This document shows, one piece after another, positions 336 to 44,136 of a stretch of 44,194 nt of DNA (its first letter is position 1; each line of letters opens with the position of its first letter). The translations under genes and the position numbers were made by a program. This DNA is from Chthoniobacter flavus (GTDB lineage Bacteria > Verrucomicrobiota > Verrucomicrobiia > Chthoniobacterales > JACTMZ01), in NCBI GenBank assembly GCA_945871065.1, contig CAMBUL010000015.1:1-44194 (forward strand), written 5' to 3'. The notes under the pieces are model-generated. The model saw only the letters and a program-made list of their open reading frames with translations. It was not told the DNA's origin and did no database searches.

Positions 336-352
336 GCGACCCTAACGGGATT
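336..352 (+). repeat. Partial tRNA-Glu 3'-end copy (17 bp)
   Basis: GCGACCCTAACGGGATT is identical over 17 bases to the tRNA-Glu 3'-end repeat at 463 and 5233, in the same orientation. It runs directly into a sequence beginning TTGATTCGGCTTCG, which is shared with the insert at 43609-43672. It is probably a third attachment site left by an earlier or stacked integration. Confidence 0.6.
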
Positions 353-420
353 GATTCGGCTTCGCCTCTCCCTGCGGGTCGACCGCTGGTCGATCTGCCT
401 CGCTTCTGGCTCGGCTCGAA
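351..420 (+). repeat. REP-like element, copy 1
   Basis: The stretch starts TTGATTCGGCTTCG and continues with CTC and CCCTGCGGG followed by small palindromes such as GGTCGACC. The reverse complement of the insert in the IS1380 transposase (43609-43672) has the same opening 14 bases and then the same order of blocks. I read the two as members of one dispersed palindromic repeat family. The right-hand boundary is approximate. Confidence 0.55.
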
Positions 421-5232: not shown

Positions 5233-5253
5233 GCGACCCTAACGGGATTCGAA
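5233..5253 (+). other. Right attachment site inside tRNA-Glu 3' end
   Basis: This is the 21-bp partner of 463-483, covering the 3' half of the T-arm, the acceptor strand and the discriminator base of tRNA-Glu plus one flanking base. The tRNA remains intact on this side of the island. Confidence 0.8.
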
Positions 5254-5305
5254 CCCGTGTCACCGCCGTGAAAGGGCGGTGTCCTAACCGCTGGACGATA
5301 GGGTC
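5234..5305 (-). tRNA. tRNA-Glu (anticodon TTC)
   Basis: Read on the minus strand, the 72-nt sequence folds into a full cloverleaf. It has a 7-bp acceptor stem GACCCTA/TAGGGTC with discriminator G, a D-arm containing AGCGGTTAGGA, an anticodon stem CCGCC/GGCGG with loop CTTTCAC (anticodon TTC, Glu), and a T-arm ACGGG-TTCGAAT-CCCGT. CCA is not encoded. It serves as the integration site of the adjacent island. Confidence 0.97.
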
Positions 5306-42495: not shown

Positions 42496-42513
42496 TTAGC
42501 CCGAATATTTCAC
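42496..42513 (+). repeat. IS1380 left terminal inverted repeat
   Basis: TTAGCCCGAATATTTCAC pairs with the right end at 44119-44136 with one mismatch. The exact outer base could be off by a few positions. Confidence 0.75.
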
Positions 42514-42570
42514 GCAGGGAGCAAAAAAGTAGCGAAGTTCCGCAGTTAACCTGCTACTGTTGTTGGTGTT

Positions 42571-43975
42571 ATGCAAACAACAGATAGAACTTCGCTACGG
42601 ACCGATTGTGCGCCGGAACTTTTTATTTTTCCAAGCTTTGATCGCCGGAAAATCGAGGGGAGTTTTACCGGCGGGGATGTGTCCAGCGATGGAGGGTTGA
42701 TGGCCTTGCGGGCGGCGGACCAGAAGTTGGGTATGATTGCGGCTTTGGATGCGGTGATCAAAGACCCGCGTGATGCGGACCAGATCGTGCATCGGCAGCA
42801 GGATCTTTTGCGTCAGCGCATTTACGGTTTGGCCATGGGTTACGAGGATCTCAACGACCACGACACCTTGCGCAAAGACCTGCTGTGGCAGAGCGCGGCG
42901 GAGCGGGCGCAGGAACTGGCCAGCAGTCCGACGCTGTGCCGATTGGAGAACCGCGCGGACCGAGCCACGGTGGTGGCCATGTCGAAGGTGCTGGTGGAGT
43001 TGTTTGTGCAAAGTTTCCAAGAAGCTCCGAGCGAGTTGATCCTGGACTTCGACGCGACCGATGACCGGGTGCACGGAGAGCAGGAAGGCCGGGCCTTCCA
43101 CGGCTACTATGGCGACTGGTGCTTTTTGCCCCTTTACGTTTTCTGCGGCGAACAGCTCCTGGTGAGCTACCTGCGGCCGAGCAACGCGGATCCGGCCCGG
43201 CATGCGTGGGCTATTTTGCAGTTGTTGGTCACGCGTCTGCGCCAGGAGTGGCCGCAGGTGAAGATCATCCTGCGCGGAGACTCGGGTTTTTGCCGTTGGC
43301 GCACGCTGCGGTGGTGCGAGCAGAACAAGGTCGATTACGTGGTGGGTTTGGCCAAGAACGACCGGTTGCTGGCCTTGGTGGAAAAGCCCATGGAGCAAGC
43401 GGCGGCAGCCTTCGAGGCGACCAAAGAGAAGCAACGGCACTTCGTGCGCTTGGAGTATGCCGCCAAGAGTTGGGATCGCCCGCGCACGGTCATCGCCAAA
43501 GCCGAGCACACCGCGAAGGGAGCCAACCCGCGTTTCATCCTCACCAGCTTGGAGGGCCAGGAGCAGAACATTTACGACAAGATTTACTGCGCGCGCGGGG
43601 AGATGGAACCGACCGCAGGGAGATAGACGGTCCGCAGGACCGCCCCGCAGGGGTGAGACGAAGCCGAATCAAAACCGGATCAAGGAACAACAACTCGGGC
43701 TCTTTGCCGACCGCACCAGTTGCCACGGTTGGTGGGCCAACCAGTTCCGACTGCTCTTGTCCTCCTCGGCCTACGTGCTCATGGAATACATGCGCCGCGT
43801 GGCGCTGGCCGGCACCGAACTGGCCCGCGCCCAAGTTACCACCATCCGGCTCAAGCTGCTCAAGATCGGCACGGTCATCTTGCGCAACACGCACCGCATC
43901 CGCTTGCTCTTTTCCAGCGCCTATCCCCACCAGCAACTCTTCGCCACCATGATGATCCGCCTCAACTCGGCCTGA
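42571..43975 (+). pseudogene. IS1380-family transposase, interrupted by a 64-bp insert
   Basis: The first part (42571-43608) begins MQTTDRTSLRTDCAPELFIF and includes the DDE-core segments LILDFDATDDRVHGEQEGRA, LYVFCGEQLLVSYLRPSNAD and IILRGDSGFCRWRTLRWCEQ, up to YCARGEME. A 64-bp insert (43609-43672) then brings a stop at 43624-43626 and shifts the frame. After it the protein resumes NRIKEQQLGLFADRTSCHGW, WWANQFRLLLSSSAY and ends RLNSA at 43975. Removing the insert joins EME to NRIKEQQ exactly, as in intact relatives. The transposase is therefore inactive as encoded. Confidence 0.85.
43609..43672 (-). repeat. REP-like palindromic insert in transposase, copy 2
   Basis: This 64-bp insert contains CGGTCC-GCA-GGACCG (43628-43642) and CCCC-GCA-GGGG (43643-43653), two adjacent perfect hairpins with GCA loops. 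Its reverse complement begins near TTGATTCGGCTTCG and continues with CCCTGCGGGG, as in the sequence at 351-420. AACCG is repeated at both edges (43607-43611 and 43673-43677), a possible short target duplication. It behaves like a mobile REP/BIME-type unit. Confidence 0.7.
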
Positions 43976-44118
43976 CCCGTCATGGTGCTGTCCCCGGCAC
44001 CCAAAAAACAACGGGGATAAGGGGCGGTGTGCCCACATCACACGACCCGGGCAAAAAACACGCCAAAATCACCGCCGCGCAAAACCATCCAATGACAAAC
44101 CGCCAAAATGATCGACCG

Positions 44119-44136
44119 GTGAAATATGCGGGCTAA
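44119..44136 (-). repeat. IS1380 right terminal inverted repeat
   Basis: On the plus strand GTGAAATATGCGGGCTAA is the inverted partner of 42496-42513 with one mismatch. Confidence 0.75.

Follow-up and report, generated by a model that had tools for sequence, protein, structure and literature searches.

The transposase gene of an IS1380-family insertion sequence in Chthoniobacter flavus is interrupted by a 64-bp element of four short hairpins. Copies of this element are dispersed among related genomes, join their targets precisely at NA^A, and carry between the first two hairpins a short linker whose bases covary with both element ends. These features are best explained by a non-autonomous element whose folded single strand would be mobilised in trans by an enzyme, a reading to which we give a probability of about 0.5. 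The DNA analysed, here called the window, comprises positions 1 to 44,194 (44,194 nucleotides) of contig CAMBUL010000015.1.

The spread of very small palindromic repeats in bacterial genomes is hard to trace, because most copies lack an empty counterpart. With units inside insertion sequences, the states before and after insertion can be compared cleanly, the target can be read exactly, and a structural rule for the ends becomes testable. Small mobile palindromes as such are already known; what is new here is the internal guide for the ends and the link to the RtT repeat. Through this link, the tandem repeats that accompany tRNA-Tyr in E. coli may be traced to such an element, an idea that becomes testable in a laboratory strain.

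The interrupted IS1380 transposase

The host insertion sequence and the two parts of its transposase gene lie in the window as follows.

42497-44135, plus strand: IS1380-family insertion sequence serving as host, with terminal inverted repeats TAGCCCGNATATTTCAC; its length is about 1575 bp when the insert is subtracted
42571-43607, plus strand: transposase gene, 5' part, as far as GGA^ ahead of the insert (sequence, profile matches and empty-site comparison)
43672-43975, plus strand: transposase gene, 3' part, in a different reading frame from the 5' part (sequence and comparison with genome G002)

The ends of the insertion sequence were determined by comparing its left end with the reverse-complemented right end and with the copy in G002, a genome of the same genus. 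Both features of the IS1380 family are present, the terminal inverted repeats and a transposase that matches PF13701 (3e-125) and NF033539 (1e-91; 307.6 bits against a cut-off of 180). The open reading frame at 42571-43626 runs as far as CARGEME, and then reads PTAGR and a stop codon within the insert. Beyond the insert, the frame NRIKEQQ...RLNSA is open to 43975. The insert introduces an in-frame TAG and a net shift of +1, and the host transposase, as predicted from these frames, is truncated by the 64-bp insertion.

In G002, the insertion sequence is 86-90% identical and encodes an intact open reading frame of 446 amino acids containing GEMENRIKEQQ, which is the junction that an earlier note on this DNA had expected to be restored on removal of the insert. 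The IS1380 transposase is also uninterrupted in G021 and G034, which belong to other families of the same order. At the insertion site G002, G021 and G034 read GGAAAATCG, GGAAAACCG and GGAAAAGCG respectively, where the window has 64 extra bases. Since the gene is uninterrupted in these three genomes, the 64 bp were added at GGA^AAAC. The earlier note had proposed a search for uninterrupted copies in related genomes and had named as a refutation the case that all relatives of the insertion sequence carry the same 64 bp; three uninterrupted copies were found, and that case did not occur. That the 64 bp represent a genuine insertion is therefore virtually certain. The insert spans 43608-43671 or, equally, 43609-43672, as the border can be placed only to within 1-2 bp between the flanking A runs. 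The same note's flanking AACCG, considered as a target duplication, was rejected: relatives with an empty site read AAAATCG or AAAAGCG, and in other targets ACCG or GCCG is the element's own 5' end.

The position of the insert, which breaks the frame inside an otherwise intact transposase, would also suit a signal for recoding or translational bypass, or an ordinary component of this lineage of insertion sequences. Relatives without the insert already refute the second of these proposals and speak against the first. The same hairpin unit also occurs in intergenic DNA, in tRNA copies and in antisense orientation. Moreover, the codon before the insert is GAA while that before the resumed frame is CAA, and the two are unmatched, unlike those of known bypass sites. 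This explanation is highly improbable.

Architecture of the inserted element

The element and its parts are listed below.

43608-43671, plus strand: inserted hairpin element, in the order R-HP1-NAGM linker-HP2-HP3-HP4-TCA (absent from G002, G021 and G034; 81.2 bits with covariance model R1)
43610-43622, plus strand: hairpin 1, CGACC-GCA-GGGAG, a stem with tandem G.A/A.G (sequence; covariation of helix 1)
43623-43627, plus strand: linker ATAGA (covariation of linker and terminal bases in about 114 copies)
43624, plus strand: linker N, a T, partner of element base 1, A 43608 (covariation)
43626, plus strand: linker G, partner of C 43670 (covariation)
43627, plus strand: linker M, an A, partner of T 43669 (covariation)
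43628-43642, plus strand: hairpin 2, CGGTCC-GCA-GGACCG (helix 2, double changes at all 6 pairs)
43643-43653, plus strand: hairpin 3, CCCC-GCA-GGGG (helix 3, double changes at all 4 pairs)
43654-43668, plus strand: hairpin 4, TGAGAC-GAA-GCCGAA (covariation of helices 4-5; sequence)

The two adjacent hairpins with GCA loops that had been described for this insert correspond to hairpins 2 and 3, but the insert has four hairpins in total. Hairpin 4 of the window copy contains tandem G.A near its base and one A.C mismatch. The folding free energy of the single window copy is not unusual (z -0.4 to -1.0); the four-hairpin structure is supported by covariation across copies, the energy of a single copy being uninformative.

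A dispersed family

An early sign of a family was that the IS1380 search itself matched short stretches of the insert in other genomes. Covariance model R1 was built from five copies, including the window copy. On the same genome it detected further copies at E values of 1e-13 to 1e-10, and 6-7 family copies were counted there with R1 and the genome search. Among related genomes, 48 of 97 contained a family copy (R1, E <= 0.01). In a sample of the phylum, 9 of 241 genomes did so at E <= 1e-6; some of them belong to other families of the class, and one belongs to a different class. An exact-pattern scan of GTDB genome contigs returned three Verrucomicrobial MAG contigs (Chthoniobacterales, Spartobacteria), the pattern being too strict to gauge the range. 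The set that was read consisted of 131 distinct copies with flanks, and the length of the element is about 55-75 nt. Phages yielded no match to the hairpin element, and the window copy had no match in Rfam (for RF00391, none at E <= 1). A literature search, with most subscription journals, including the early papers on the tyrT repeats, outside its scope, found no prior description of the family. There is little doubt that the window insert belongs to a dispersed mobile family.

The window contains a second copy.

351-417, minus strand: family copy at TTCGA^ATCCCG in a copy of the 3' end of tRNA-Glu (R1 46.7 bits, E 4e-11)

The tRNA-Glu gene of the window lies at 5233-5305 on the minus strand, and its 3' end (5233-5253) is repeated 4.8 kb away. 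One repeat (463-483) is identical over 21 bp and another (336-356) is diverged, a pattern as found after integration or as derived from tRNA-end arrays.

Covariation of the fold and pairing of the ends with the linker

On the strand in the given orientation, the element forms four short hairpins, commonly with GNA loops; 3-nt loops like that of hairpin 2 were GNA in 69 of 117 cases. In hairpins 1 and 4, tandem G.A adjoins the closing pair. Double-sided changes were observed at all 15 of the 15 modelled pairs. The covariation score was 0.330, compared with 0.107 for shuffled alignments and 0.024-0.040 with partners slid; the score benefits from an alignment that had been fitted to the model, and the slid controls are still about 10 times lower.

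The linker N-A-G-M is located between hairpins 1 and 2. In the 114 copies parsed, element base -3 and linker M were T-A in 89, G-C in 21 and C-G in 1, and the other 3 proved on reading to be parsing errors. The association was strong (Fisher 2e-15; 6e-7 for copies less than about 85% alike; earlier, noisier parse), and both pair types, T-A and G-C, were found within each of six genomes. Similarly, element base 1 and linker N were A-T in 22 copies and G-C in 46, against 5 mismatched (Fisher 2e-13, copies beginning with AT excluded). The excluded copies, nearly all of one family, have A with A, against the first-base rule. As base -3 covaries with M and base 1 with N, one 4-base linker can align both ends. 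A head-to-tail join of the element, (T/G)-C-A-R, is complementary to N-A-G-M save for one A.A. This Watson-Crick pairing between ends and linker, newly seen here, is held with high confidence; the rule was derived from the very copies on which it was measured.

Insertion sites and target

Copies interrupt transposase genes of several families (host families were assigned with Pfam for a subset and by reading of the protein for the remainder). The hosts include IS3 (L085, with units in both orfA and orfB, and L069), IS256 (L066, L147, L171, L172 and L248), ISL3 (L148) and a DUF772-type transposase (L081), and one more copy adjoins an IS66 domain. Reading of the flanks suggests as further hosts an IS1634-like gene (L095), an IS1595-like gene (L093), HsdM genes (L134, L185) and an ABC-transporter gene (L145, two copies). 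Many copies occupy the T-loop site TTCGA^ATCC in short copies of tRNA-Ser or tRNA-Glu 3' ends beside an intact tRNA gene. The remaining copies are intergenic.

The target is NA^A, where N is G or C. Position -1 is A in 84 of 85 sites and position +1 is A in 83 of 86; position -2 is G in 54 of 85 and C in 25 of 85. Joining was precise at the empty sites GGA^AAAC, GATGA^AAAC, TGGGA^AAAC and others, with a single-A duplication possible. The two IS3 sites of L085, GAGGAAAAT and TGGGAAAACGG, are empty in G054/G076, and G019 is also among the empty relatives. At IS256 site B, a unit is present in G000 and absent from the 96%-identical insertion sequence of G010. This pair bears out the view of the earlier note that such units are a clean case for studying the movement of small palindromes, and its call to count other insertions and their target duplications yielded many more insertions of the family and no duplication beyond the possible single A.

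In G041, an identical 61-nt unit occurs at the same IS256 site and codon in three copies (L171, L172, L248) of an insertion sequence that are otherwise only about 71-76% alike. With the unit counted, the DNA of these insertion sequences aligns at 75-76%. The flanks of the copies on C59 and C95 are about 71% alike, since the alignment value of 75% counts the identical unit, and the copy on C143 shares no flank on one side. This arrangement suggests that the units were inserted recently and separately at a preferred site, or that a very short tract was converted.

Movement might also need no dedicated enzyme: repeats on either side of a unit could spread it through homologous recombination, gene conversion or template switching. 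Copies often lie within repeats (tRNA 3'-end arrays, REP-like palindromes, insertion sequences), the homology of L163 and L172 to other copies starts at or near the left end of the element, and no enzyme was found. Set against this are precise single-copy gains at NA^A in unrelated genes of several families of insertion sequences with no shared flanks. Conversion would furthermore bring flanks along, yet identical units have flanks about 25-29% different. Spread by recombination of this kind is considered unlikely, though it is the strongest of the competing explanations.

Several further observations concern the sites. In L066 (G000:C43), two units of opposite orientation (149-212 and 230-291) lie 18 bp apart in one IS256 transposase, and the 96%-identical copy of G010 has one of the two. 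In the comparisons of L163 with L134 and of L172 with L248, homology starts at or within a few bases of the left end of the element, as if the unit and its right flank had moved or had joined new DNA on one side. A preference for hairpin loops, which had looked convincing at some palindromes and at the tRNA T-loop, was rejected on comparing 113 sites with 6135 control NA^A sites (p = 0.20). The reading of the first base R as a target base rather than an element base is disfavoured by the tRNA-Ser copy of L074 and by the ATGCGAA repeat around L089. Local GC skew indicated no lagging-strand bias (44 of 85).

Probable kinship with the RtT repeat

The tyrT/RtT repeat of E. coli, located beside tRNA genes, has been known for a long time without being explained. 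A plasmid search matched repeats of Klebsiella that are RtT RNA (RF00391, 118-134 bits). Full-length matches to RF00391 were obtained for the Verrucomicrobial tRNA-linked loci L029, L080, L077 and L120, at 34-42 bits and E values of 3e-5 to 0.004 (all families); the scores were 42.3 bits for L029 (E 3e-5), 39.8 for L080, and 37.9 and 37.7 for L077. The gathering score of 45 was reached by no Verrucomicrobial copy, with 0 of 9 genomes over the cut-off. In the reverse search, R1 matched the E. coli and Klebsiella units weakly.

Both families contain the same hairpin module (CGAGCGNAGCGAGA-linker-HP2-HP3-HP4) and share the T-loop site TTCGA^ATCC in a copy of a tRNA 3' end. The RtT-like tandem setting with a tRNA 3'-end copy is found in L074, L077, L080, L120, L123, L178 and others; the transposase copy of the window lies outside such a setting. 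RtT was seen here beside tRNA genes only, whereas the hairpin family also occurs in transposases and intergenic DNA. All 12 enterobacterial units examined lie at TTCGA^ATCC but were selected by that flank, and the shared T-loop site consequently rests on the RtT alignment. In 11 of the 12, a C at base 1 faces N = G, and a 3' end of GTA goes with AC or GC in the linker. Base 1 and N form C-G, and the 3' end forms A-T or G.T plus C-G; as judged from these base identities, the end-linker pairs hold with different bases. The 12 units are closely related and weigh as little more than one or two cases. Taken as sequence comparisons, these likenesses make it quite probable that the hairpin family and the RtT core share descent rather than resembling each other by coincidence.

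Similar arrangements were noted at other loci. L077, L178, L123 and L065 are tandem arrays with a period of about 138 to 400 bp, located 3' of tRNA-Ser or tRNA-Glu, and each repeat has a tRNA 3' tail and one hairpin unit, as in the E. coli tyrT repeats. In E. coli CKJ_1000_3.1 (L262, 559-692), an RtT unit occupies the same T-loop site by tRNA-Pro, not tRNA-Tyr. A Klebsiella plasmid (L257; NZ_CP132641.1, 124742-125392) contains three RtT repeats without annotation in the gene table.

Proposed mechanism of movement

The working form of the element would most likely be folded single-stranded DNA with four short hairpins, the ends of which would be held together by the internal linker 5'-N-A-G-M-3'. 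Linker N would pair with element base 1, and G and M with the two bases that precede the terminal A. The aligned ends would be cut in trans, most likely by a single-strand transposase of the HUH/Y1 type or a mechanistic equivalent, and the strand would be joined into A^A preceded by G or C without target duplication. We infer the single-stranded moving form, the action in trans and the class of enzyme; GNA loops on one strand and precise, duplication-free joining fit them. The narrower proposal of single-strand movement by an HUH-like enzyme is tentative, with odds somewhat below even.

Comparison of Y1_Tnp counts and neighbourhoods identified no mobilising gene. Counts of Y1_Tnp (PF01797) and of the element were not correlated among the MAGs (rho -0.07, p 0.47), and 13 MAGs contain the element without a Y1_Tnp match. 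An element copy was near 2-3 of about 58 Y1_Tnp loci examined, some such copies being inside another repeat. In G041, 2 of 14 Y1_Tnp genes have an element copy within about 110 bp.

The element could instead act at the level of RNA, either as a structured RNA copied to DNA (retro-mobile) or as a very small intron-like unit removed from transcripts, the linker serving as its internal guide. A single linker that aligns both ends recalls splice-site guides. Insertions in genes are mostly sense (about 10 distinct sites against 2, by eye) and mostly within a GAA codon, and the annotation of the related RtT describes an RNA produced by processing of the tyrT transcript. Nevertheless, two gene insertions are antisense (IS256 site A and L095), and some hosts are decayed: the open stretch of L069 orfB upstream of the unit spans only about 97 codons, compared with 217 in L085. 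We know of no ribozyme near 60 nt, which also counts against this explanation, and it appears improbable. Equally speculative is the idea that a folded nucleic acid of about 60 nt aligning its own ends on a 4-base guide constitutes an independent mobile class, perhaps excised from DNA or transcripts, of which tyrT/RtT would be a captured, immobile relic.

Comparison with known small mobile elements

Double-hairpin elements and GC clusters of fungal and algal mitochondria are tiny, GC-rich and mobile, and have several hairpins. They are likened here by description; the hairpin element differs in being bacterial and in having four hairpins and end-linker covariation. Rickettsia palindromic elements (RPE) are small palindromic units within protein genes (PMC10969869), as is the hairpin element in its transposase hosts. 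In contrast to RPEs, which leave the reading frame of the host intact and contribute an extra peptide, the window insert has a stop and a frame shift. As to the marks of MITEs of DDE transposons, the copies read have no terminal inverted repeat, and the known empty sites no duplication of more than 1 bp.

The preferred reading, in which an enzyme would move the folded single strand in trans, likens the element to the REP/RAYT and IS200/IS605-like systems, as it is short, folded and non-autonomous. IS200/IS605 enzymes recognise hairpins, and short guide sequences pair with and set their cleavage sites (PMC6006769). This guide pairing resembles the linker-end pairing of the hairpin element and is the nearest working analogy, with the difference that the linker pairs with the element's own ends. 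As in IS200/IS605, units were inserted precisely and, apart from a possible single A, no target sequence was duplicated. Linker G-M covaries with 3' (T/G)C over 114 copies, which would correspond to guide bases complementary to the 3' end, with a putative role at the cleavage site. A conserved 5' target tetra- or pentanucleotide is absent, only NA^A being conserved.

A REP/RAYT system proper, in which the units would be moved by a REP-associated tyrosine transposase, was also considered. The units are small palindromic repeats, and two Y1 transposases of G041, one intact with 156 aa (C24) and the other decayed (C101), each lie near a copy. The hairpin element differs from REP sequences in its four small hairpins and in a target of only NA^A; it begins with RYCG, its flank is NGA or NCA, and it has no GTAG/CGTC tag at the palindrome foot. 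The RAYT of G041 is flanked by a separate GTAG-type palindrome, and the copies on C101, C15 and C129 lie inside a palindrome beside the RAYT. The lack of correlation between copy number and Y1_Tnp argues against this system as well, which seems rather improbable.

In L223 (G041:C24, 400-870), the intact 156-aa Y1/REP-type transposase has GTAG-type palindromes on its flanks, and elsewhere in G041 palindromes related to these are interrupted by the hairpin unit. In two related genera (g24, g16), hairpin units are found inside long GTAG...CTAC palindromes, which are REPIN-like (L012, L022, L030, L125, L164 and L167).
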